A stretch of 36,042 bases of DNA from Clostridia bacterium BRH_c25 (lineage in GTDB: Bacteria > Bacillota_A > Clostridia > Lutisporales > Lutisporaceae). Positions 3,898-29,612 of the stretch are shown piece after piece. Where the stretch lies: the NCBI GenBank assembly GCA_001515955.1, contig LOES01000238.1, forward strand, positions 1-36,042, given 5' to 3'. Below the pieces are notes generated by a model. The model was given only the letters and a program-made list of their open reading frames with translations. It was not told the DNA's origin and did no database searches. How positions within the stretch are numbered: the first letter of the stretch is position 1; the number at the start of each line of letters is the position of its first letter. A program made the position numbers and the translations under genes.

Positions 3898-3919
3898 GGC
3901 GTTTTGCGCGCAAAACGCC
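3898..3919. repeat. 22-bp perfect palindrome
   Basis: GGCGTTTTGCG followed by its exact reverse complement CGCAAAACGCC. It follows the rplQ terminator in the intergenic mosaic before ecfA1. There is no T-run, so it is not a standard terminator. It could be a mobile repeat arm or a protein-binding site. Confidence 0.8.
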
Positions 3920-12097: not shown

Positions 12098-13426
12098 ATG
12101 AAAAAATTATTATCCTATGCACTAGTAGCAGTATTATTAATCTCAGTCTTAGTAAGTGGGCCAAACCCAGGACTATACGTTGTAGATGCTGTTTCAGCAG
12201 CTACAGGAGACGACACTGCACCTGCACCTGCAGCTGCATCTAAAGCACAAACAGCAACAGAGGTAGCAAGTTTACTTGTAGAAGGTTCTTTCGGCGGTGA
12301 AGTTGCGCTTCTGCAGACAATGCTTAACAATAATGGGTACACTTTAAAGGTTGATGGCTTCTTTGGACAGAAAACATTAGCTGCAGTTGAGGACTACCAA
12401 AGCAAAAATGGTTTAAAAACTGACGGTATAGTCGGACCCAAAACTCTTGCATTGTTAAATCCAGTTGCACCTGCAGCACCGGAAGTTGCAGCAGTTGAGC
12501 CTGAAGCAGTTGAGCCTGAAGCTGTGGAACCAGTAGCAGATGCAGTATCATCAGCTTCAATAGTAGATAACGGAGCTGCTTTTGAAAAGGCTATAAGCAA
12601 AGATGGTACATGGATTATATGTACTCTGAATGATTTAGCTATTGATAAGGATCTTGTTTTAGAAGGCGAATTCCATGATAAGAATGATCCGACTAAAGAT
12701 TTAAAGCGTAAGATAGGTCTTTATACTCAGGATGATGATCATAATGTAACAGCTAGATTCAGTTTGACAGCACCATCATTAACTATAAAAAGTCCAAATG
12801 CAAGAATTCAAAGTAGTACATTTATAGGAGATCTTTACATCTACGCAAAGAACTTCAGCCTGGTAGATGCTAAAATTGATGGAAATGTTTATTTTGCAAC
12901 ACAGGAAGCTAAAGATACATTCAATGCTGACGAAAAAAGCTCAATAACAGGAAAGCAGATACTATTTGATGTAGATGCAGTATCAACTGCAACGCCTACA
13001 CAAGTACAAGATGCAGCAGCTTTTGAAAAAGCAATAAGCAAAGATGGATATTGGATTATTGTTCCTATAATAGACCTTGCTATTGATAAGGATCTTGTAT
13101 TAGAAGGTGTATTCCATGATAAGAATGATCCGACAAAAGACCTTAAACGTAAAATAGGTCTCTATACTCATAACAATCCTGAAGACAAAAAGATTGCTAC
13201 ACATTCATTCACTTTAACAGCACCATCATTAACTATTAAGAGTCCATATGCTACTCTTCAATATGGATATTTTATCGGTGATATATATGTTGAAGCAAAC
13301 AACTTTTCTTTAGTGAAAAATAAGGTTACTGGAAATATATATTTCGCTAATCAGGAAGCTAAAGACACTTTCACGATGGATGCTGACAGCTCGGTAACAG
13401 GAGTGCAGGAAATAAAGACAAAATAA
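12098..13426 (+). CDS. Secreted peptidoglycan-binding protein with two unknown repeats
   Basis: 442 residues. A signal peptide at 1-34 (KKLLSYALVAVLLISVLVSG, probable cleavage after VSA) is followed by a PG_binding_1 domain at about 64-121 (EVALLQTMLNNNGYTLKVDG, FFGQKT, DGIVGPKTLALL). A Pro/Glu/Ala linker (EPEAVEPEAVEP) comes next, then two copies of a domain I do not recognise, at 160-287 and 307-437. Each runs from AAFEKAISKDG through DLVLEG.FHDKNDPTKDL and LTAPSLTIKSP to a G.(I/V)YFA.QEAKDTF end, with beta-strand character. The protein is probably anchored non-covalently to the wall by the first domain. No catalytic residues are evident. It is monocistronic, with a strong promoter and a following hairpin. 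Confidence 0.85.
   Translation: MKKLLSYALVAVLLISVLVSGPNPGLYVVDAVSAATGDDTAPAPAAASKAQTATEVASLLVEGSFGGEVALLQTMLNNNGYTLKVDGFFGQKTLAAVEDYQSKNGLKTDGIVGPKTLALLNPVAPAAPEVAAVEPEAVEPEAVEPVADAVSSASIVDNGAAFEKAISKDGTWIICTLNDLAIDKDLVLEGEFHDKNDPTKDLKRKIGLYTQDDDHNVTARFSLTAPSLTIKSPNARIQSSTFIGDLYIYAKNFSLVDAKIDGNVYFATQEAKDTFNADEKSSITGKQILFDVDAVSTATPTQVQDAAAFEKAISKDGYWIIVPIIDLAIDKDLVLEGVFHDKNDPTKDLKRKIGLYTHNNPEDKKIATHSFTLTAPSLTIKSPYATLQYGYFIGDIYVEANNFSLVKNKVTGNIYFANQEAKDTFTMDADSSVTGVQEIKTK
12575..13408 (+). repeat. Internal duplication of about 128 codons
   Basis: The coding segments 12575-12958 and 13016-13408 are two diverged direct copies. Some stretches are nearly identical in DNA, such as GCTATTGATAAGGATCTTGT and CATGATAAGAATGATCCGAC in both. 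This indicates a fairly recent gene-internal duplication or ongoing homogenisation. Confidence 0.9.
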
Positions 13427-13705: not shown

Positions 13706-13744
13706 TATTATGTATACGGTTTTAGATTATATAGGAGAGTGCCT

Positions 13745-15607
13745 ATGTTAAAAACACTAAAAGGGAAAATTACCCTGGTCTATACCTGCCTTGTATTAAT
13801 GATAGCTATAATAGGGTCCGCATCTGTATTGAATTTATATAGATTGAGTAAGGCAATTGACGGATTAATGGTGGACAACTACAAAAGTATAAATGCAATA
13901 TCCTACATGCTGGAGGCTTTTGAACGCCAGGACAGTGCCACTTTGATTTACATTAACGTTGATATTGGGAAAGGTATTGAGCTATTTACACAGAATAGCA
14001 ATGAGTTCATGAAATGGTATATCACAGCAAGCAATAATACTACCGAGACAGGGGAAAAAGAGTTGTTGAACAAGGTTAATAAAGATTACATGGATTATTC
14101 AATGCTCTTTTCCAAACTCCAGGAAATCAGGAATAAAGAAGGTGCTGATGAGTCGGCATATTTCTATGATACCGAAATGATGCCGGAATTTGTAAAAATA
14201 AAAAATGAGCTGCGCGAGCTTACACATTTAAATGAGGTAGGTATGTTCAGTTCAAAGGATGAAGCAACGAAAAGCACACATGAGTCCATGTATGTAATAC
14301 TGGCGCTTTCAGCTTTGGCTGTTACCGGAGGGCTACTGCTGTCAATACACTTTACCAATAGATTTATGAAGCCGTTGGATAAATTAACTACCACAATAAA
14401 ATCAGTGAAGATGGGAAATTGGAACCAACAAATCAACGTTGTCAGCAGGGATGAGATTGGAGAGCTCTCTATAGAGTTCAACAAATTGACAAAAAGACTT
14501 TATCAGTATGAACAGAGCGCACTAGGCAAGCTTATGACAGAAAAAAACAAATCATTAGCTATAGTAAAAAGCATACCGGATCCATTGATTGTACTTGATA
14601 CAGCCTACAGGATTTTGCTGCTGAACGATACTTGTGAAATGTTTTTTGGTATTGAGGAAAAAAAGGTACTTAAGAAGCATTTTCTTGAAGCTATAAGGAA
14701 CGAAGAAATTTTTGAGATAGTATCAAATGCCTTCGAGGACATGGTGGAAATGGATGACCGGATCATAAAGATAGAGCATAAGGAGGAGTACTATTTTAAT
14801 GTAATAGTTACTGTGATAAAGGACAGAGAGTCCAGGGTTACAGGCCTCATTATACTCCTAAAGGATGTAACACAATTAAAACAGCTTGAGAAAGCCAGAA
14901 CAGACTTTGTTTCAACCATATCCCACGAATTTAAAACGCCGCTGACATCTATCATGATGGGAACAAGTATGGTGCTTGACGGAAGTATGGGTACATTAAA
15001 TGAAGAACAGCAAGATGTGATGAATACCATAAAGGAAGATGGTGAACGGCTTACAAGGCTTGTCAATGACCTTCTTGAATTGTCAAGGATTGAGTCGGGT
15101 AGCTCAGCTTTTGATATGGAGCCCTGCTCAATTGATACTGTTATAGATAATTCCGTAAAACAGTTTGCTATACAGGCAGCACACAAAAGCGTGAGCATCA
15201 GTACCAGGATTGAAGAAAATATGCCGAAGGTTATTGCCGATAATGAGAAGATAACCTGGGTTTTCAATAATCTTATAAGCAATGCACTGAAATACACCAA
15301 TCCCGGTGATGAAATAGTTATTGATGCTTTTATAGAAAATGGGAAGATGCATGTCTCGGTAAAAGATACGGGGATAGGCATTCCTGAAGAGTTCCAGGAG
15401 AAGATTTTTGATAAATATGTGCAGGTAAGGGGACAGGATCTGGAAGCCCGTGGAACAGGGCTTGGGTTGGCTGTTGTCAAAGAGATAATCAATACACACG
15501 GAGGGGAAATATGGTGTGAGAGCAAAATGGATACCGGCAGCATATTTACATTTACCCTTCCATTAAGTTTTTTGGAGGTACCAGGTGAAAAGAATTTTGG
15601 TAATTGA
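13745..15607 (+). CDS. Sensor histidine kinase (TM-HAMP-PAS-HisKA-HATPase)
   Basis: 620 residues. A membrane segment at about 9-31 is followed by an external helical sensor region of about 150 residues, a second membrane segment near 182-202, HAMP, a PAS domain at about 270-370 (IPDPLIVLDTAYRILLLND), then HisKA with phospho-acceptor His394 (STISHEFKTPLTS) and an ATPase domain with NLISNALKYT, DTGIGIPEE and RGTGLGLAVVKEI. AGGAGA with a 6-base gap sets ATG 13745 rather than the in-frame GTG at 13739. The end overlaps the response regulator by 23 bp, so they form a pair. The signal is unknown; potassium genes downstream suggest ionic or turgor sensing, which is inference. Confidence 0.93.
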   Translation: MLKTLKGKITLVYTCLVLMIAIIGSASVLNLYRLSKAIDGLMVDNYKSINAISYMLEAFERQDSATLIYINVDIGKGIELFTQNSNEFMKWYITASNNTTETGEKELLNKVNKDYMDYSMLFSKLQEIRNKEGADESAYFYDTEMMPEFVKIKNELRELTHLNEVGMFSSKDEATKSTHESMYVILALSALAVTGGLLLSIHFTNRFMKPLDKLTTTIKSVKMGNWNQQINVVSRDEIGELSIEFNKLTKRLYQYEQSALGKLMTEKNKSLAIVKSIPDPLIVLDTAYRILLLNDTCEMFFGIEEKKVLKKHFLEAIRNEEIFEIVSNAFEDMVEMDDRIIKIEHKEEYYFNVIVTVIKDRESRVTGLIILLKDVTQLKQLEKARTDFVSTISHEFKTPLTSIMMGTSMVLDGSMGTLNEEQQDVMNTIKEDGERLTRLVNDLLELSRIESGSSAFDMEPCSIDTVIDNSVKQFAIQAAHKSVSISTRIEENMPKVIADNEKITWVFNNLISNALKYTNPGDEIVIDAFIENGKMHVSVKDTGIGIPEEFQEKIFDKYVQVRGQDLEARGTGLGLAVVKEIINTHGGEIWCESKMDTGSIFTFTLPLSFLEVPGEKNFGN

Positions 15608-16169
15608 TGATACAAAAAATATACGAATGCTTTTGACAAAGTGTCTGGAGCACGAAGGCTACCAGGTGGATACTGCCAGTGATGGACAGGAGGCTTTGGA
15701 TATGTTCAGAAAGAGCAGATATGATCTTGCTTTTCTGGATATAAAGATGTCAAAGCTGAGCGGCACTGAGGTTCTTAAAAGCATCCGGGAGATAGGGATA
15801 GAAACACCTGTAATTATTATAACGGCATATGCAACTGTTAAGAACGCTGTAGAATGCACAAAGCTGGGAGCGGTAACTTATATTCAAAAGCCTTTTACTG
15901 CTGAAAAAATCAGGACAGTATTGAGTGAATTAATGAGCAGGCATGCGGATAGCTGTATACTTGGAGAAGCAGACAGCATACTGAGAGAATCAAGAGAATT
16001 GATAGATGCAGGTGCATTTATTGATGCTCTTGAAATGCTCAAAGGTATTATTGCAAAAGAAATCAGCAATCCTGAGGTTTACTTTCTTATCAGCAAGGCA
16101 TATCAAGGCATGGGGAATAGGGAAAGTGCAGACAGGTTCTATAAGACTTATCTGATATTCAGTAATTAG
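15585..16169 (+). CDS. Response regulator with receiver and TPR-like C-terminus
   Basis: 194 residues starting at GTG, 7-8 bases after GGAGG. The receiver domain (1-115) has the acidic pair Asp8-Asp9, phospho-acceptor Asp52 (LAFLDIKMS), Thr80 and Lys102 (QKPF). Residues 120-194 form two helical pairs resembling TPR units (ESRELIDAGAFIDALEMLKG, then PEVYFLISKAYQGMGNRESA). There is no DNA-binding domain, so output is probably through protein contact. Its gene overlaps the kinase gene and precedes the orphan RCK and ktrB genes. Nothing suggests truncation by frameshift. Confidence 0.9.
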   Translation: MKRILVIDDTKNIRMLLTKCLEHEGYQVDTASDGQEALDMFRKSRYDLAFLDIKMSKLSGTEVLKSIREIGIETPVIIITAYATVKNAVECTKLGAVTYIQKPFTAEKIRTVLSELMSRHADSCILGEADSILRESRELIDAGAFIDALEMLKGIIAKEISNPEVYFLISKAYQGMGNRESADRFYKTYLIFSN

Positions 16170-16272: not shown

Positions 16273-16293
16273 AATAGTAAGGGGGAACTGTAG

Positions 16294-16698
16294 ATGGTAG
16301 TGACAATCATTGAAGGGCGCGAACTAAGCTATACACTGGCAAGGATTCTCAGGCTGTTTAATCACAGAGTAAATATCATCAGGCAGGAAAGTGAAGCAAA
16401 TGTGAATAGTTTGAACGAGCTTGGAGTGAATACCATCTTTGGTGCAGGTTTGGACGTAGATGTTCTTTCACAGTCCTGTGTCTCGGAATCAGATGTGTTT
16501 ATAGTTCTTATGGATGATGACCTGGATAACCTTGAAGCTTGCTTATATATTAAGAACAATTTTATTAACAAAAGAACGATAACAAAGGTTAATAACCCCA
16601 AATATGCTAAGAAATTTGAGCAAATAGGTATAGATATTGCTATAGATGGTGCATTTATTTCACCTAGTACTATTAGCTCAGATAAGGAAGTAAAATGA
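16294..16698 (+). CDS. Orphan RCK N-domain protein (TrkA-N-like), degenerate nucleotide site
   Basis: 134 residues covering one RCK N-terminal Rossmann-like domain with no RCK C domain. The fold order is recognisable (MVVTIIEG, ARILRLFNHRVNIIRQ, NTIFGAGLDVDVL, SDVFIVLMDDDLDNLEACL, KRTITKVNNPKYAKKFEQIG). The usual GxGxxG loop, however, reads EGRELS, so nucleotide binding is doubtful. It overlaps ktrB by four bases (ATGA), so the two are translationally coupled. It may be a regulatory partner of the KtrB channel or of KtrA; that is inference. GGGGGAACTG precedes the ATG. Confidence 0.75.
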   Translation: MVVTIIEGRELSYTLARILRLFNHRVNIIRQESEANVNSLNELGVNTIFGAGLDVDVLSQSCVSESDVFIVLMDDDLDNLEACLYIKNNFINKRTITKVNNPKYAKKFEQIGIDIAIDGAFISPSTISSDKEVK

Positions 16699-18038
16699 GA
16701 ATTTTTAAAATAAAGCAGACCCAGGCAATCGTTATTGTATTTGCTGCGATTATTATTATGGGAAGCATATTGCTGAATCTCCCCGTTTCCTCCAAGGACG
16801 GTCAGAGCATAGGTTTTATCAATGCACTGTTTACAGCAACCTCAGCCGTATGTGTCACAGGGCTGGTAGTTGTAGATACTTATACACACTGGACTGTTTT
16901 TGGACAGATAGTAATTCTCTTGCTTATACAAATAGGCGGTCTGGGCTTTATGACCCTGGCAACTTTGTTTTCATTGGCACTGGGACGCAGAATTTCTTTC
17001 AAAGAGAGACTGCTTATTGCGGAGTCTTTAAACCAGTTCAGTCCCCAGGGGATGGTTAAGCTTATTAAGGATATTATGTTGGGTACACTTATTTTTGAAG
17101 GCTTGGGAGCTATTATACTGTCTATCAGGTTTGCAGGCCAGTTTGGAATAAGGAATGGCATTTTTAAAGGAATTTTTCATTCTGTTTCTGCATTCTGCAA
17201 TGCAGGCTTCGACCTTATGGGGGAGAAGGGACAATTCTCCAGTCTGACGGCATATGCTGAAGATCCTGTAGTAAGCCTTACGGTTATAACTTTAGTTATT
17301 ATAGGGGGATTGGGGTTTGCTGTTTGGGAGGACGTATACAAAACAAGGAACTTCAGCGAGCTGAGATTGCATACTAAATTGGTATTGACAGTGACTTCCA
17401 TACTACTGATCTCAGGCTTTATATTTTTCCTGACAATGGAGTATTCAAATGTTAAAACCTTGCAGCCTCTAAGCTTTAAAGGCAAAATTCTTGCATCAAT
17501 GTTTCAGTCGGTTACTCCAAGGACTGCGGGTTTCAACACCTTGCCGACAGGTGACTTGACTAATGCTTCAAAGCTGATGACAATGGTATTAATGTTCATA
17601 GGAGGATCACCAGGATCAACTGCCGGAGGCATCAAGACTTCTACTGCGGGTGTGCTTTTATTTTCTGTAATTTCGGTGCTTAGAGGATGCAATGATGTTA
17701 ATATGTTCAGAAAAAGGTTGGAAACTGAAGTTGTTTTCAGGGCTATGGCTATTGTCATATTAAGCCTTATTGTTATTATAGGTACAACAATAGTACTGTC
17801 CATATCCGGGCAGGCGGCATTGTTGGAGTATTTATTTGAATCGATTTCTGCATTTGGCACTGTAGGTTTATCACTGGGGGTCACCACTACCCTTGGCAGT
17901 GTAGGCAAGGCAGCATTGATTATTACCATGTTCCTGGGCAGAGTCGGGGTTCTTACCATGGGTATGGCAATCACTGTAAGAATGCAAAAATCAGAAGTAA
18001 AGCTTAAATATCCCGAAGCAAAAGTATTGGTAGGATAA
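16695..18038 (+). CDS. ktrB: Potassium uptake channel subunit KtrB
   Basis: 447 residues, the TrkH/KtrB fold of four membrane-pore-membrane repeats. The four pore loops are visible as SAVCVTGLVVVDT, SAFCNAGFDLMG, TPRTAGFNTLPT and SAFGTVGLSLG, with the selectivity-filter glycine in each. GGSPGSTAGGIKTST after the third pore is the intramembrane loop that gates KtrB. The length and missing N-terminal helices fit KtrB better than TrkH. It is coupled to the RCK gene upstream and followed 14 bp later by ktrA. Confidence 0.93.
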   Translation: MRIFKIKQTQAIVIVFAAIIIMGSILLNLPVSSKDGQSIGFINALFTATSAVCVTGLVVVDTYTHWTVFGQIVILLLIQIGGLGFMTLATLFSLALGRRISFKERLLIAESLNQFSPQGMVKLIKDIMLGTLIFEGLGAIILSIRFAGQFGIRNGIFKGIFHSVSAFCNAGFDLMGEKGQFSSLTAYAEDPVVSLTVITLVIIGGLGFAVWEDVYKTRNFSELRLHTKLVLTVTSILLISGFIFFLTMEYSNVKTLQPLSFKGKILASMFQSVTPRTAGFNTLPTGDLTNASKLMTMVLMFIGGSPGSTAGGIKTSTAGVLLFSVISVLRGCNDVNMFRKRLETEVVFRAMAIVILSLIVIIGTTIVLSISGQAALLEYLFESISAFGTVGLSLGVTTTLGSVGKAALIITMFLGRVGVLTMGMAITVRMQKSEVKLKYPEAKVLVG

Positions 18039-18052
18039 ATAGGAGGATTTCT

Positions 18053-18745
18053 ATGCAGTCATTTATAGTATTAGGACTTGGCAGATTTGGACAAAGTGTG
18101 GCAAAAACTCTCTACGATTTGGGGCATGAGGTATTGGCAATTGATGAAAATGAAACCTTGATACAGAATATTGCGGACCATATTACTTATGCTCTGGTTG
18201 GGAATGTTACTGATGAGAATGTATTGAAATCAGCGGGCACGTATGCTCTGGTTGGAAATGTTACTGATGAGAATGTATTGAAATCAGCGGGAGCAAAGAA
18301 CTTTGACGCTGCGGTCGTTTCTACAGGTAAAAACCTGGAGTCCAGTATTCTTGTAACTCAGATGCTAAAAGAAATGGGGATAAAGTATATACTGGCCAAA
18401 GCTCAAAATGAATTGCATGCGAGAGTATTGAGCAAGCTGGGAGCTGACCGGGTAGTATTCCCTGAACAGGATATGGGCGTAAGAGTTGCACATAATCTGG
18501 TTTCTACCAATATAATTGATTATATTGAGTTATCGCAGGATTATACAATAATTGAAATAAACCCGCCTAAGCGCTGGGAGGGCAAGACATTAAAGGAATT
18601 GAACGTCAGAGCAAGGCATGGCATTAATATCATTGCAATAAAAAACGGGTCAAAGATAAATGTATCACCTACTGCTGATTATATTGTAAGCAGTGATGAC
18701 GTTTTAGTAGTAATCGGACCTAAAAGTGATATAGATAAGTTTTAG
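18053..18745 (+). CDS. ktrA: Ktr system RCK regulatory subunit KtrA, with an internal tandem duplication
   Basis: 230 residues. KtrA forms a cytoplasmic ring that binds ATP/ADP and opens KtrB. The nucleotide loop GLGRFG (8-13) and acidic residue Asp31 (IDENE) are intact. Residues 45-62 (TYALVGNVTDENVLKSAG) are repeated exactly at 63-80. The coding copies, 18185-18238 and 18239-18292, differ at three third-codon positions only. One copy aligns with the normal third strand and next helix of the RCK fold, so the second is an 18-residue insertion. The RCK C domain follows at about 150-230 (WEGKTLKELNVRARHGINII), the region that binds c-di-AMP in known KtrA proteins. The protein may be altered or inactive. 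AGGAGG lies 8 bases before the ATG. Confidence 0.92.
   Translation: MQSFIVLGLGRFGQSVAKTLYDLGHEVLAIDENETLIQNIADHITYALVGNVTDENVLKSAGTYALVGNVTDENVLKSAGAKNFDAAVVSTGKNLESSILVTQMLKEMGIKYILAKAQNELHARVLSKLGADRVVFPEQDMGVRVAHNLVSTNIIDYIELSQDYTIIEINPPKRWEGKTLKELNVRARHGINIIAIKNGSKINVSPTADYIVSSDDVLVVIGPKSDIDKF
18185..18292 (+). repeat. 54-bp in-frame tandem duplication inside ktrA
   Basis: Two adjacent 54-bp units, 18185-18238 and 18239-18292, identical at 51 of 54 positions. The three differences (18187/18241, 18202/18256, 18238/18292) are all silent. Confidence 0.97.
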
Positions 18746-18866
18746 ATTTTCCAAGTAAGAATTTCGGCATCTTTAGCGATATTTTATGATTACTTTTACT
18801 TGATTGACAACAAATATAAAGGAATAATATTTTCTCCATAAAACCTTCACATCAATGAATTATAAT

Positions 18867-19453: not shown

Positions 19454-21553
19454 ATGAACAGACTGAACAATACCTCGCCATTCAATTTATTAAAATCTAC
19501 GCTTATAGGATTTAGAAAAAACAAAAGACCTTACCAAAAGCTTTCTAAGCTATCAAATGTTTCTATACGTAATAAAATCATCAGTATTGTTATCATAGCA
19601 GTTCTGATCCCAATGGGCATGTCTACATATATTTCGGGGAAAACAGTAGCGGACAAAATTGAAAATGAAGCAAAGGCAAGATTGTTTGATACGCTTGATT
19701 CATCAATTTTCTATATTGAAGATTATCAGAAAAGAGCAAAAGATAATGCATCTATTCTTTCTAATGCAGCAGAGCTTAGACAATATTGCACAGACGGTGA
19801 TAATTTAAAGGCCTCGCAGTTCCTAGTCCAGCTTTCAAGTGAGATTGAACTGGATTTTGCAATGGTTGCAGATAAGGATAAAAAGCTGCTTAGCAGAACT
19901 GATCAACCTATGAGATCCGGGGATGACCTATCAAATGACTATATGATTAAAAGCGGATTTGCCGGATTCAGAAACACAATTATATATCCAACAGCAAACG
20001 GGATGACAATTCAATCAGTCTCGCCAATCAAATCAAGTACTGCTGCAACCGGAGTACAGACAATAGGCGCGATAATCATCCAATACAATATTGATAGGCA
20101 CTTTGTTGAAAGTATAAAAGAAATGAATGGGATGGAGACTGCACTTTATGTTGGAGACAGCATAATTTCTACATTGGTGGATGAAAAAGATCCGAATTTA
20201 AGTGAGATCAAGTCAGAGTTAAGAATCAGCAGTGATATGCAGGACAGACTGGCTAAGTCAAAGGAACAGCAAATTGAGACCAAGAAAATTGAGGGTAAGC
20301 TTTATAGTGTTGCATACAAACCGATTTGTAATAATAAATCAGAAATTGTAGGTATATTATCAATAGCGATGCCCCAGGATGAGATTGTTACAGCTAAAAA
20401 AAATGTACAGATTTATATCTTTATGATAGGCCTGGCCGGTATCTTATTTGCAATCCTATTTACTGCCCTCACTTCCAAAAGCATTGTAAACCCGATCAGA
20501 AAGCTTGTGAGTGACACCAAGGTGATAGCAGAAGGAAACCTGATATATAAATCCGATATTAACGGTAAGGATGAAGTCGGCCGGCTTGCAAGTGAATTCA
20601 ATGCTATGGCGGACTCCCTGAGAAATCTTATATTGCAGGTGCGGCATACTGTTGATACAAGTACAAGCTCCTCAAAAACCTTAACTTTATATATAAAGGA
20701 TGTAAGAGAGATATCACATAAGGTGGAAGCAATATCAGAGAGTATAAAACAAGGTTCTCAGGAGCAATTTGAGTATTTGAACCAAACTAAGAGCGAAATT
20801 ACTAATGTTTCTATTTCGGCAACAGAAATATCCAGCCAGACTGAAGAAATTGTCAGGCACACGAATACAGCAAAGCAAGTTGTGGAAAAAGAGGCAAACT
20901 CGTTAAAAGAGCTAGCAAATAGTATGTATTTTACCAGAGATACAATCATGAATATGACTAATAAAATAGCTGATTTTAAGTTGAATCTGCAGCAGGTACG
21001 AAAAGCTGTTGGAATTATAACTGCCATAGCAGCTCAAACAAAGCTTCTCGCATTAAACGCTGCAATAGAAGCAGCCAGAGCCGGTGATGCAGGTAAAGGC
21101 TTCGGAGTGGTAGCTGAAGAAGTAAGAAAGCTTTCGGATGAGTCAAACAACTCAATTGCTATAATTAATGGAATAATAAAAGCCTTGTTTACTGAAATGG
21201 AAGCAACAATAAATGTTGTGAAGGAAAGTGCAAGTAATTTTGAGCGATGCAGTACTATAGCAAATAGCACGGAAAAATCCTTCGGAGACATTGTACATAC
21301 AATTAATGAAGTAAACAGTATGATATCGGATATATCGGGCAAGGCCGGCATGCAGGCCGCAAATACTGATAAAATATCAAACATCATACGTGATGCAAGT
21401 ATTATATCTCAAGACTCCTTCAGTCAATCGGAGCTTATGCACGAAGGTGCTTTAAAACAAAGCCGGCAGCTTGTCAAATTGATAGAAGAACTTGACATGC
21501 TGACGGGGGATATTGGGAAGACCCATTCGGTTATGGAGAAATTTAATGTGTGA
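19454..21553 (+). CDS. Methyl-accepting chemotaxis protein
   Basis: 699 residues. A membrane segment at about 40-60 is followed by an external sensor domain of about 260 residues, probably Cache-like (FAMVADKDKKLLSRT, TIGAIIIQYNIDRHFVE, LYSVAYKPI). A second membrane segment lies at about 320-342, then HAMP (VNPIRKLVSDTKVIAEGNL) and a long coiled-coil signalling domain. The conserved hairpin that contacts CheA and CheW is clear at about 520-565 (KLLALNAAIEAARAGDAG, then GFGVVAEEVRKLSDES). The ligand is unknown. It is a single gene between terminators. No chemotaxis kinase genes are in the window. Confidence 0.93.
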   Translation: MNRLNNTSPFNLLKSTLIGFRKNKRPYQKLSKLSNVSIRNKIISIVIIAVLIPMGMSTYISGKTVADKIENEAKARLFDTLDSSIFYIEDYQKRAKDNASILSNAAELRQYCTDGDNLKASQFLVQLSSEIELDFAMVADKDKKLLSRTDQPMRSGDDLSNDYMIKSGFAGFRNTIIYPTANGMTIQSVSPIKSSTAATGVQTIGAIIIQYNIDRHFVESIKEMNGMETALYVGDSIISTLVDEKDPNLSEIKSELRISSDMQDRLAKSKEQQIETKKIEGKLYSVAYKPICNNKSEIVGILSIAMPQDEIVTAKKNVQIYIFMIGLAGILFAILFTALTSKSIVNPIRKLVSDTKVIAEGNLIYKSDINGKDEVGRLASEFNAMADSLRNLILQVRHTVDTSTSSSKTLTLYIKDVREISHKVEAISESIKQGSQEQFEYLNQTKSEITNVSISATEISSQTEEIVRHTNTAKQVVEKEANSLKELANSMYFTRDTIMNMTNKIADFKLNLQQVRKAVGIITAIAAQTKLLALNAAIEAARAGDAGKGFGVVAEEVRKLSDESNNSIAIINGIIKALFTEMEATINVVKESASNFERCSTIANSTEKSFGDIVHTINEVNSMISDISGKAGMQAANTDKISNIIRDASIISQDSFSQSELMHEGALKQSRQLVKLIEELDMLTGDIGKTHSVMEKFNV

Positions 21554-25232: not shown

Positions 25233-25691
25233 ATGGGGAGTAAAGTTCGCTATATTTCAACCGGACAACAGCTTGTAGATACTGTGAAAGCACTGCTTGA
25301 AGCTTATCAAAAGCCGGATATCATGATTTCCGGAGTTTGGGTCAAGTCTCTGCATAAGGATATCATTGATTTGATCATTGATAAGCAATGCAGCAACTCT
25401 TGCAAGGTAATTATACCAAAATTGCTTTTTAAGGGCAACATATCCTTGACTCTGATGAGAAATGTGTGTAAAGCAGAGGGTCAGGTGAGGGTCAACAATT
25501 CAGTGACAAACAACCTTCTGATAATTGGCGGATATGCGTTTATACTTTCATTCTCCAGCAGACTGAACAGTCTCAATCAGTTGTGTACTAATTTTGAATG
25601 CGCAGTTATGTTTGACGATGAAGAGATTGTCAATGAACTTAAGGAACAGCTCAATGATACTTTTGAAAACAGTGTTCTTTTTAGAATGTAA
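25233..25691 (+). CDS. Hypothetical protein, possibly degenerate phospholipase D-like half-domain
   Basis: 152 residues, no signal peptide or membrane segment. The middle and end (VRVNNSVTNNLLIIGGYAFI, LSFSSRLNSLNQLCTNFECA, VMFDDEEIVNELKEQL) resemble the second half of a phospholipase D-like domain, where a catalytic HxK(x)4D motif would be followed by a ready-made strand and N.E..V.F. Here the His and Lys are replaced, so no catalysis is expected. The family call is inference from pattern. GGGAGGTG precedes the ATG. It lies 124 bp before trkA on the same strand. Confidence 0.6.
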   Translation: MGSKVRYISTGQQLVDTVKALLEAYQKPDIMISGVWVKSLHKDIIDLIIDKQCSNSCKVIIPKLLFKGNISLTLMRNVCKAEGQVRVNNSVTNNLLIIGGYAFILSFSSRLNSLNQLCTNFECAVMFDDEEIVNELKEQLNDTFENSVLFRM

Positions 25692-25815: not shown

Positions 25816-27171
25816 ATGAAAATAATCATTATTGGTGCCGGGAAAGTCGGATATAGCCTGGCTGAAAGCTTGTCGAAGAGCAATAACGATGTGATAATCA
25901 TAGACAAGAACTATGCTGCTTTGAGCAAAGCTGAAGAAAATCTTGAGGTACTTTGCATCAGAGGGAGCGGCGTCAGCACCAGTATTCTTATGGAAGCGGG
26001 AATAGACACCACTGATTTGCTGATTGCAGTAACAAGCAGTGATGAGGTCAATATGGTCTGCTGCCTTACTGCAAAAAAGCTTGGGGTTAAGTTTACAATA
26101 GCAAGGATAAGAGATCCTGAGTATGCTAAAGAGCTTTCTCTTTTAAAGGAGGAGCTTGATCTGGATCTTATTATAAATCCCGAACAAGCAGCAGCTGAGG
26201 AAATTGCCAACGTTCTGAACTTTCCTATTGCTATTAATGTAGAGAACTTTGCCAAGGGAAGAGTCAAAATGGTAGAACTGAAGGTTACAGAAGAAATGGG
26301 TATAATAGGCATTCCTTTGAGAGATATGGGCAGTAAGCTTATATCATCCATACTGATTGGAGTGGTTATAAGGAATGAAGAGGTCATAGTTCCAAATGGA
26401 GATTTTGTAATTGAGGAAAATGACAGAATCTATGTAATAGGAAAGCCGTCCAATCTCTATAATTTTTGCAAGATGTCAGGAAAATGTCCGCAGAAAATAA
26501 GAAATGTCATGATTGCAGGAGGCGGCCGAATAGCCATTTATCTTGCAAAACTATTGTCAGAAATGGATATTAAGGTGAAGTTGATCGAATTTGACAGGGA
26601 GAAGTGTATCCAACTGTCTGAATTGCTTCCGGAGGCACTTATAATACATGGGGATGGAACTGATGAAGAATTGCTGAAATCAGAGAATGTGAGTGATATG
26701 GATGGATTTATATCAATGACGGGTATGGACGAGGAAAACCTTATGTCAGCACTACTGGCGAAGCAGAATGGAGTAAAGAAGGTTATTGCAAAAGTCAGCA
26801 GGGTTAACTATATAAACATTATAAAAAGCTTGGGCGTTGACAGCGTGATAAGTCCAAAGCTTATTACAACCAATCACATATTAAAATTTGTCCGTGGCAA
26901 CAACATTGAGTCCTTATACAGAATAATCGAGGGGCAGGCTGAGATCACAGAGATTATTGCAGACAGCGCCAGCGATATCCTGAATATAAAAATCAAGAAG
27001 CTCGGACTTCCAAAGGATGTTATAATTGCGACAATTGTAAGGAAGAAAGAAGTTGTTATACCTCATGGAAATGACATAATCAGAGAGGGAGACCGGGTTA
27101 TTGTTATTTCGAAAAACAAAAACATTTCCAGCTTGAATGAGGTAGCAGCTAACTCAGCAGGAGGATTTTAG
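25816..27171 (+). CDS. trkA: Trk potassium uptake regulatory protein TrkA
   Basis: 451 residues with the full two-unit TrkA plan: RCK N1 (GAGKVG at 7-12, Asp30), RCK C1 (about 140-215), RCK N2 from about 229 (NVMIAGGGRIAIYLAKLL, EFDREK) and RCK C2 at the end (IIREGDRVIVISKNKN). TrkA binds nucleotides and gates TrkH. The start has GGGGGCTTAAGC upstream. One base separates its stop from the trkH start, so the two are translationally coupled. It has no duplication like the one in ktrA. Confidence 0.95.
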   Translation: MKIIIIGAGKVGYSLAESLSKSNNDVIIIDKNYAALSKAEENLEVLCIRGSGVSTSILMEAGIDTTDLLIAVTSSDEVNMVCCLTAKKLGVKFTIARIRDPEYAKELSLLKEELDLDLIINPEQAAAEEIANVLNFPIAINVENFAKGRVKMVELKVTEEMGIIGIPLRDMGSKLISSILIGVVIRNEEVIVPNGDFVIEENDRIYVIGKPSNLYNFCKMSGKCPQKIRNVMIAGGGRIAIYLAKLLSEMDIKVKLIEFDREKCIQLSELLPEALIIHGDGTDEELLKSENVSDMDGFISMTGMDEENLMSALLAKQNGVKKVIAKVSRVNYINIIKSLGVDSVISPKLITTNHILKFVRGNNIESLYRIIEGQAEITEIIADSASDILNIKIKKLGLPKDVIIATIVRKKEVVIPHGNDIIREGDRVIVISKNKNISSLNEVAANSAGGF

Positions 27172-27172
27172 G

Positions 27173-28624
27173 GTGAATTTTAGAGTAGTATCAAGAATCC
27201 TTGGTATGTTGCTGGTATGTGAAGCGTTATTGATGCTGCCGGCTCTCGTAGTATCGGCATATTATCAGGGTACGGATATACATGCCTTTGCGCTAAGCAT
27301 ATTGATAACAGGCTTAGTGGGTGCTCCATCGACGTTTTTAAAAACCGGAAAGAAAAGCATTTATGCCCGTGATGGTTTTGCTATTGTTGCTTTAGGTTGG
27401 ATTCTTATGTCTTTTTTTGGTGCACTTCCTTTTTTTATAAGCGGTGCCATTCCTTCATTCATTGACAGCTTTTTTGAAGCCAGCTCCGGTTTTACTACTA
27501 CCGGAGCAAGTATTTTAACTCACATAGAGGATTTGCCAAGAGGTATTCTATTTTGGAGAAGCTTTACCCACTGGGTGGGCGGCATGGGTGTAATTGTATT
27601 GACTCTTGCTATTCTGCCTTCAATTGGTGCCGGTGCAGTACAAATGATGAAAGCAGAAAGTCCCGGACCATCTCCGGGGAAAATTGTGCCAAGAGTGGCT
27701 GAAACGGCAAAAATACTGTATGGAATATATATCATGATTACAATTGTGGAAATCATTTTACTGAGGCTTGCAGGTTTACCTTTTTATGATGCAGCTATCC
27801 ATACTTTTGGTACTGTTGGTACGGGCGGATTTTCGAATATGAATGCCAGTGTGGGAGCATACAATAATATATATGTCGAGATTATTATTACTATATTCAT
27901 GTTTATATGCGGTGCAAACTTCACCCTGTATTATCAAATGCTTAAAGGTGACCTTAAAGCACCATTTAAAGATGAGGAATTCCGGTTTTATTCCGGAGTA
28001 GTGATATTATCAATTGCTTTAATCACAATTAACCTATATGGAAATGTGTTCAACTCCTTGTGGGAATCTCTGCGGCATTCGGCCTTTCAGGTTGTTTCCA
28101 TTATTAGTACAACTGGCTATACCTCAACAAATTTTGAAACATGGGGGATGTTCGGTAAGATTATACTTTTAATGCTGATGTTCGTTGGAGGCTGTGCAGG
28201 CTCTACCGGCGGTGCCATAAAAAATATCAGATTCATGCTGCTTTTCAAGGTTATGAAAAGAGAACTGCTGCAAATAATACATCCAAAGGCAGTTTATACT
28301 GTCAGATTTGGAAGCAGAGCAGTGGATGAGAAAACAATATCTGAGGTGTTGGGATTCTTTTTTATGTACATAGTAGTCTTCATTATCGCTGTACTCGCCG
28401 TTTCTCTTGATAATCTTGATTGGGCAACAACCATATCCTCTGTAGCAGCGACTCTCGGTAACATAGGACCCGGCTTTGGGATCGTCGGCGCAGCAGGCAA
28501 CTACTCATCATTGTCGAACTTCAGTAAGATAGTGTTGTCTTTGTGCATGATAATCGGACGGTTGGAGATATATCCCATACTACTTCTCGGTATGCCTTCC
28601 TTCTGGAAAAGAATTAATATATGA
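27173..28624 (+). CDS. trkH: Trk potassium uptake channel TrkH
   Basis: 483 residues, membrane protein with the extra N-terminal helices of TrkH. Four pore loops: EASSGFTTTGASIL, HTFGTVGTGGFSNM, ISTTGYTSTNFE and ATLGNIGPGFGI. The gating-loop equivalent is GGCAGSTGGAIKNIR. The start is GTG at 27173, with AGGAGG upstream inside the end of trkA. A strong terminator follows. Confidence 0.95.
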   Translation: MNFRVVSRILGMLLVCEALLMLPALVVSAYYQGTDIHAFALSILITGLVGAPSTFLKTGKKSIYARDGFAIVALGWILMSFFGALPFFISGAIPSFIDSFFEASSGFTTTGASILTHIEDLPRGILFWRSFTHWVGGMGVIVLTLAILPSIGAGAVQMMKAESPGPSPGKIVPRVAETAKILYGIYIMITIVEIILLRLAGLPFYDAAIHTFGTVGTGGFSNMNASVGAYNNIYVEIIITIFMFICGANFTLYYQMLKGDLKAPFKDEEFRFYSGVVILSIALITINLYGNVFNSLWESLRHSAFQVVSIISTTGYTSTNFETWGMFGKIILLMLMFVGGCAGSTGGAIKNIRFMLLFKVMKRELLQIIHPKAVYTVRFGSRAVDEKTISEVLGFFFMYIVVFIIAVLAVSLDNLDWATTISSVAATLGNIGPGFGIVGAAGNYSSLSNFSKIVLSLCMIIGRLEIYPILLLGMPSFWKRINI

Positions 28625-28664: not shown

Positions 28665-29366
28665 CTATTTGTAAAACACATGATCACCAATTCTTTTGAC
28701 AAGGGTTTTGTTATTTACAATCCATGTACCTTCTGACTTGTCCGGATTAAAGAAATATGTCGAATTCCCAACAATGCTTGTCCCGGCAAATACGGCTTTT
28801 GCCGCTTTTATACTATCAGCATTCGGGGTATTATAAATAGTACCATCTGCAACCGGGCTGAACTGAGGAATGTTTTTATAATACTCGAATATTACACCTT
28901 TAACTGTATTCGGGAACGAACTTGACTTTACCCTATTCATAATGACATTACCAACGGCAACCTTGCCTGAGTAAGGCTCAGCTTCCGCTTCGGCATTAAT
29001 TATTCTTGACAGCCAGTAAAGGTCGGTGGTTGAATATCTTGTCCCTCTTGCAGCAGTTGTATTAGCAGCAGTGGAGGCAAAAAGCTTTGTCTGAGTTTGT
29101 CTGCCTGCAATACCGTCAATTCTCAGGCCGTTCATCTGCTGATATCTAATAACTGCATTTTCAGTCTTTTTTCCATAAATTCCATCAACGGTCCCAACTT
29201 TGAAGTTATTGGCATTCAATTCTTTTTGCAGGTGAACTACAGCTTCTCCTCTGCTTCTGAATTTCAGGACACCATAATAGGTATCTGCAAACACACTTAG
29301 AGTTTGTCCCACTAAAAGCAAAGAAATAATTGTAACACAGATAATGGTCTTAAACTTATTTTTCAT
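28665..29366 (-). CDS. SleB-like cell wall hydrolase with peptidoglycan-binding domain
   Basis: 233 residues from ATG 29366, which follows GGAAGGAG; the frame stays open to 29408 but without a ribosome site. A signal peptide at 1-27 (KTIICVTIISLLLVGQTLSV, FA) precedes a PG_binding_1 domain at about 38-96 (VVHLQKELNANNFKVGTVDG, YGKKTENAVIRYQQMNG). The Hydrolase_2 (SleB) domain runs from about 117 to 233, with Glu126 in INAEAEAEPYSGK as the likely catalytic acid, and AVGNVIMNRV. SleB-type enzymes are lytic transglycosylases, often in spore germination but also in growth. Its leader carries a c-di-AMP riboswitch, which points to a role in wall turnover linked to turgor. Confidence 0.9.
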   Translation of the reverse strand: MKNKFKTIICVTIISLLLVGQTLSVFADTYYGVLKFRSRGEAVVHLQKELNANNFKVGTVDGIYGKKTENAVIRYQQMNGLRIDGIAGRQTQTKLFASTAANTTAARGTRYSTTDLYWLSRIINAEAEAEPYSGKVAVGNVIMNRVKSSSFPNTVKGVIFEYYKNIPQFSPVADGTIYNTPNADSIKAAKAVFAGTSIVGNSTYFFNPDKSEGTWIVNNKTLVKRIGDHVFYK

Positions 29367-29441
29367 ACACAATACACTCCTTCCATAGATATGTGCCCTC
29401 GAATGCAATACAAGAAGATACTGGACACATGAATCGTTAAT

Positions 29442-29489
29442 GCATTATTAAACTTTAAATGCAAATATAAGCTGAAAGTTTAATAATGC
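29442..29489 (-). promoter_or_regulatory. Long hairpin after the riboswitch, possible expression platform
   Basis: On the minus strand, a 15-bp perfect stem, GCATTATTAAACTTT with AAAGTTTAATAATGC, with an 18-base loop, starts directly at the 3' edge of the riboswitch core. No U-run follows (ATTAACGATTC), so it is not a standard intrinsic terminator. Confidence 0.65.
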
Positions 29490-29612
29490 CTGCCTCCGAA
29501 GTTAGCTGACGGGCTCGGGACAGAAGGTTCCCTACTATGGTTTTCCATAGATTAACCCCAGAATTGGTTCCTCCGTACCCGGCAAGACCGGGATTCAGCG
29601 AATGTCTGTGTT
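29490..29612 (-). promoter_or_regulatory. c-di-AMP riboswitch (ydaO-yuaA class)
   Basis: Read on the minus strand, the core motifs occur in the known order: CGCTGAATCC, GTACGGAGGAACC, GGGGTTAATC, an A-T rich hairpin CTATGG/CCATAG, TAGGGAACCTTCTGTCCCGA, then CCCGTCAGCTAACTTCGGAG. These match the conserved blocks of the ydaO-yuaA class, which binds cyclic di-AMP and often lies before wall hydrolase and potassium transport genes. In that class ligand binding usually lowers expression. The boundaries are approximate. Confidence 0.95.

Follow-up and report, generated by a model that had tools for sequence, protein, structure and literature searches.

The closest described relatives of the protein discussed here are the Bacillus subtilis potassium uptake regulators KtrA and KtrC (PDB 4j90, 5but and 6i8v), which combine a TrkA_N with a TrkA_C domain, a GxGxxG...D nucleotide site and a glutamate, E125, of the type that binds the bridging cation. 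The Rossmann nucleotide motif consists of GxGxxG and, where strand 2 ends, an acidic residue (PMC6957272). We found all of these traits in the ktrA gene of a 36,042-nucleotide stretch of DNA from Clostridia bacterium BRH_c25 (contig LOES01000238.1, hereafter the window), where the gene also adjoins a TrkH/KtrB channel gene, as it does in B. subtilis KtrAB. The encoded protein matches Pfam TrkA_N with 111 bits (cut-off 23.8) and TrkA_C with 62.4 bits (cut-off 27), and its best sequence relatives in the PDB are KtrA and KtrC. The nucleotide motif reads G8-L-G-R-F-G13, D31 ends strand 2, and E138 aligns with E125. Unlike KtrA and KtrC, however, the window protein possesses 18 extra residues that repeat strand 3 to helix C, and in a residue-by-residue alignment all three solved chains show an 18-residue gap against it.

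Length changes of this kind have been described for other bacterial genes. In Escherichia coli carB, a 21-bp duplication and three deletions relieve the control by uridine monophosphate (PMC6941894). As in our case, duplication and deletion forms of a regulated protein are involved, and the carB forms share one direction of effect; carB is nevertheless a different protein whose effects were measured, while the window KtrA is known from its sequence. The E. coli rpoC allele K370_A396dup, an 84-bp in-frame duplication recovered from two osmotolerant mutants of independent origin (PMC5615307), likewise is internal and leaves a core protein functional, but it concerns another protein, was selected in the laboratory under osmotic stress and was confirmed by reconstruction. 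Of nine Streptococcus suppressors lacking cyclic di-AMP (c-di-AMP), a single one carried a ktrA mutation; a 90-bp duplication, not attributed to a particular gene here, is reported as well (PMC5919688). Duplications upstream of pbp4 (PMC11077961) and of a kup gene (PMC6108528) do not concern ktrA in the accessible parts of these papers. Judged by titles and the starts of abstracts, the search terms used for KtrA with a tandem or in-frame duplication returned no paper describing such a KtrA, and those used for intragenic or internal tandem duplication in bacteria gave no matches.

Within the 230-residue KtrA, residues 45-62 are exactly repeated as residues 63-80, in frame, and both 54-nucleotide copies (Table 1) translate to TYALVGNVTDENVLKSAG. 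The copies differ at 18187/18241 (T/G), 18202/18256 (G/A) and 18238/18292 (C/A), all of which are third codon positions. The repeat was detected independently by Tandem Repeats Finder (18188-18291, period 54, 98% matches, score 201). A chance origin is ruled out: the longest exact run inside the repeat is 35 nucleotides, compared with 11-13 nucleotides for the longest exact direct repeat (distance 12-400) in 20 first-order Markov surrogates of the window. At the DNA level one may alternatively describe a 50-nucleotide repeat (TATG...GGG, one mismatch) with the spacer CACG at 18238-18241; the protein identity reaches both ends of the 54-nucleotide unit only owing to the four-fold degeneracy of Gly and Thr codons. 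We rejected a nearby template for the seam bases as junction filler: CGGGCACG has a single further occurrence, at 3919, and CACGTATG a single one near 21392 on the opposite strand, but words this short are no evidence. Hairpin-driven instability was rejected too, the single-strand DNA fold being nothing unusual (z -0.07). The first-pass annotation had described an exact 18-residue duplication with three silent DNA differences, and its coordinates, length and translation are correct. Its placement of the repeat in the Rossmann (TrkA_N) domain is borne out by Pfam and by the alignment with the solved KtrA/KtrC chains, in which one copy takes the position of the normal strand 3 and next helix and the other segment is extra.

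The protein search with KtrA matched 7144 sequences, of which 120 were listed and aligned. The segment that starts at D31 and ends one residue past the NF motif is 37 residues long in 119 of these 120 homologues and 18 residues longer in the window KtrA; in the exception, P0002, it has 29. The extra 18-residue segment was found in none of the 120 listed homologues (7144 matched), and none of the 50 matches among genome contigs spans the 690 nucleotides that the duplicated gene requires, the longest reaching 663 (L048, 23% identity). The homologue alignment and the length of the matches thus rule out that the segment is a normal part of the KtrA fold. The genome of a sibling species (G008, 89% identity) aligns without gaps over 16281-18237 and, again ungapped, over 18239-18752, whereby 53 bases of its single copy are used twice. 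Scanning genome contigs gave a closest match of 71%, and the 22 genomes in the family of G001 contain nothing closer than G008 (89%). A plasmid-borne copy was also considered and dismissed: at the sensitivity used, a search of 72,556 plasmid records gave only two partial matches.

The search returned P0001, a protein of 212 residues which equals the window KtrA minus one copy with 0 residue differences, and P0002 (204 residues, one 10,718-base contig), which equals P0001 minus eight residues of the same segment. KtrA therefore occurs in forms of 204, 212 and 230 residues that are otherwise identical, of which the 212-residue form with its single copy represents the normal gene. The extra segment, for which the annotation had considered both a fixed and a strain-specific state, is not fixed, given P0001 and its absence from the 120 listed homologues. 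The 90% cluster of P0001 comprises 11 contigs and could also hold the 230-residue form; the P0001 and P0002 clusters have two member sequences each, and the forms are compared here as proteins, and their lengths are not assignable to contigs. The longest contig of P0001 (616,698 bases) matches in length that of the TrkH and TrkA clusters and may even be the contig of the window itself. The neighbouring TrkH and the TrkA of the second system served as controls. P0121 (447 residues) is identical to the window TrkH, in a cluster of 8 contigs with two member sequences, one of which was examined. For the second-system TrkA, P0241 (10 contigs, one member sequence) as well as P0242, which differs from the window TrkA by one substitution, have 451 residues, and the sole shorter near-identical TrkA match listed, P0347 (300 residues), is an exact substring that begins inside the gene. 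No length form was found for TrkH or the second-system TrkA among the listed matches, but this control is weak, as sequences of slightly different length may go unseen within a 90% cluster. The two length changes in one 18-residue segment of otherwise identical proteins are the one thing here above the ordinary. From these data we infer, with a probability of about 0.5, that the window carries a real allele, namely a recent, species-internal, in-frame tandem duplication of ktrA at the level of the strain, and that this duplication affects the function of the protein.

The silent nature of the three differences had been taken as an argument against an assembly artefact and as a sign that the duplication persisted under protein-level selection. 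We find neither conclusion supported. The inference is weak, because of the three differences two border the seam and because a mosaic of two strain haplotypes, arisen naturally or by the assembler, would likewise differ mostly at silent sites. An old duplication, kept by protein-level selection or gene conversion and providing a new ring assembly or nucleotide response, would agree with three silent differences, an intact open reading frame and retained mapped nucleotide-site residues. We nonetheless consider it very improbable in view of the 120 listed homologues without the segment, the otherwise identical single-copy protein P0001 and the two differences located at the seam. For this uncultured clostridial bacterium, a recent mutation, or else an assembly error, is the likeliest origin of the repeat, rather than a long-kept innovation.

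A strain-chimeric assembly is the main rival, and we regard it as quite possible, if clearly short of even odds. Here, two contig ends that overlap, or two haplotypes from a population of mixed strains, would have been joined with an overlap of about 54 nucleotides kept, so that one stretch was written twice and strain single-nucleotide polymorphisms or end errors came to lie between the copies. The existence of P0001 fits this, as does the seam, where two of the three differences sit and where the Thr codon is ACG, the rarest one (8% of the Thr codons in 18 open reading frames of the window). P0002, the second length form, differs at the same place, as would be expected of a locally troubled site, and near-identical protein variants exist in P0242, one residue away from the window TrkA. 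Against such a join stand the preserved reading frame (1 in 3 by chance) and the fact that a common short read can span the 108-nucleotide repeat. Simple repeat collapse in a short-read graph is a separate matter: at k = 36 and above no exact repetition is left, which makes plain collapse unlikely and leaves a haplotype join unaffected. False heterotype duplications, in which near-identical copies differ as haplotypes do, are well documented (PMC9516828), albeit for vertebrate assemblies, and a gap, one of the marks named there, is absent from the window, where the sequence runs continuously between the copies without any N.

If the recent duplication allele is real, the duplicated unit would be the strand 3-loop-helix C element of the nucleotide-binding Rossmann domain. 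Either copy could occupy the native place, with the remaining one looped out. Were copy 1 native, the loop would emerge between the equivalents of L66 and F71 of B. subtilis KtrA, near the KtrA-KtrB contact (the accessible part of PMC12059179 holds no list of KtrA contact residues); were copy 2 native, it would emerge between helix B and strand 3. Because the mapped nucleotide-site and cation-site residues of KtrA are intact, a foldable yet impaired gating subunit appears likeliest, with weaker ring packing or weaker coupling to KtrB. KtrA-type regulators form an octameric ring, with ATP acting as a stimulator and ADP not. In the impaired subunit, ATP stimulation would be reduced or lost and KtrB would operate near its basal flux, while K+ uptake would be covered by the TrkA-TrkH system, whose presence the annotation had correctly noted (25816-28624; Pfam, NCBIfam). 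Judging from the sequence, the duplication thus probably weakens the ATP/ADP control of the channel. Several points weigh against this recent, impairing allele. The window is the single record that provably carries the 230-residue form, and the AlphaFold register was set by the position of the alignment gap, so the native copy is not predicted by it. Moreover, three silent differences in 54 nucleotides are many for a very recent duplication; they fit only if two of them are seam filler or if the copies derive from two strains. Finally, of the 162 single changes to the unit 42 are silent (0.26 for a random one), which gives about 0.017 for three of three without constraint, and the all-silent pattern mildly favours a protein that is still under selection and perhaps still functional.

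The two different in-frame changes in one 18-residue segment of otherwise identical proteins could also mean that length mutations recur at strand 3-helix C of KtrA in the species, with adaptive or reversible gains and losses that adjust the nucleotide control of the K+ channel or shut it off, and with a repeat that can revert by recombination. The listed TrkH and TrkA matches with their constant lengths agree with this within the limits of that control, since clusters can hide members, and carB (PMC6941894), rpoC (PMC5615307) and the Streptococcus ktrA suppressor (PMC5919688) provide precedents. Each length form is, however, represented by very few sequences, with cluster counts that do not give the contigs per form, and the site shows no unusual single-strand DNA structure (z -0.07), so that we judge this explanation to be unlikely. 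One may go further and speculate about a natural length-switching site at which the 204-, 212- and 230-residue forms coexist, the duplicated form being a reversible low-coupling channel state from which recombination restores the single copy, and K+ uptake being set by mutation besides ATP/ADP. This seems to us more doubtful still.

A real allele would amount to a natural experiment on RCK gating rings, in which the protein gained a whole strand-helix unit, perhaps next to where KtrA meets KtrB, and retained the mapped nucleotide- and cation-site residues. Taken with the form lacking eight residues, it would single out a short stretch of a K+ regulator as repeatedly hit by length mutation. If, in turn, the repeat is an artefact, it serves as a warning that silent differences between tandem copies are no proof of a duplication in sequence that may stem from a mixed population.

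Table 1. Features of the ktrA repeat and of the surrounding genes, in window coordinates.
Feature	Coordinates	Strand	Basis or remark
ktrA, RCK-domain K+ uptake regulator, TrkA_N + TrkA_C	18053..18745	+	intact 230-residue open reading frame, Pfam, PDB relatives
ktrA copy 1 of the 54-nucleotide tandem duplication	18185..18238	+	residues 45-62: strand 3, GNVTD loop, helix C
ktrA copy 2 of the 54-nucleotide tandem duplication	18239..18292	+	residues 63-80
seam bases CACG	18238..18241	+	site of two silent differences (of three); may be junction filler
trkH/ktrB-type K+ channel subunit, 447 residues, directly upstream of ktrA	16695..18038	+	Pfam TrkH 195.5 bits
TrkA_N-only protein, 134 residues, ktrA cluster	16294..16698	+	Pfam TrkA_N 68.2 bits
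sensor histidine kinase upstream of the ktrA cluster	13739..15607	+	Pfam: 4HB_MCP, HAMP, PAS, HisKA, HATPase
response regulator, receiver domain	15585..16169	+	Pfam
TrkA of the second K+ system, 451 residues	25816..27171	+	NCBIfam TrkA equivalog NF007041 above cut-off
TrkH of the second K+ system, 483 residues	27173..28624	+	Pfam TrkH 252.6 bits; NCBIfam TrkH matches below their cut-offs

The channel gene next to ktrA is further identified by TIGR00933, whose cut-off of 331.15 is exceeded with 359.5 bits. Between it and the response regulator gene sits the gene of the TrkA_N-only protein, the DNA of which is kept in the sibling G008 (within the ungapped alignment 16281-18237). This protein and the full KtrA resemble the two-subunit TM1088A/TM1088B ring (PMC4380455), and by analogy the RCK ring may be a mixed one here, built from both proteins.

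Close to the second system, a 152-residue open reading frame upstream of TrkA (25233-25691) has no Pfam match at E 0.001, and its DNA is 73.7% identical to that of G008. On the other side, a c-di-AMP riboswitch (ydaO/yuaA leader, RF00379, 82.2 bits) at 29476-29610 on the - strand adjoins the TrkA-TrkH genes; it lies upstream of the gene for a cell-wall hydrolase (28665-29408, - strand), which includes a peptidoglycan-binding domain. A second tandem repeat, of 15 bp, is present at 12490-12522 (2.2 copies, 100%) in a peptidoglycan-binding protein (12098-13426), where it encodes a Val-Glu-Pro-Glu-Ala linker and looks like an ordinary low-complexity linker. Pfam matches of this protein are confined to its peptidoglycan-binding part, and that domain is followed by a pair of similar segments, each some 120-130 residues long and each containing AAFEKAISKDG.
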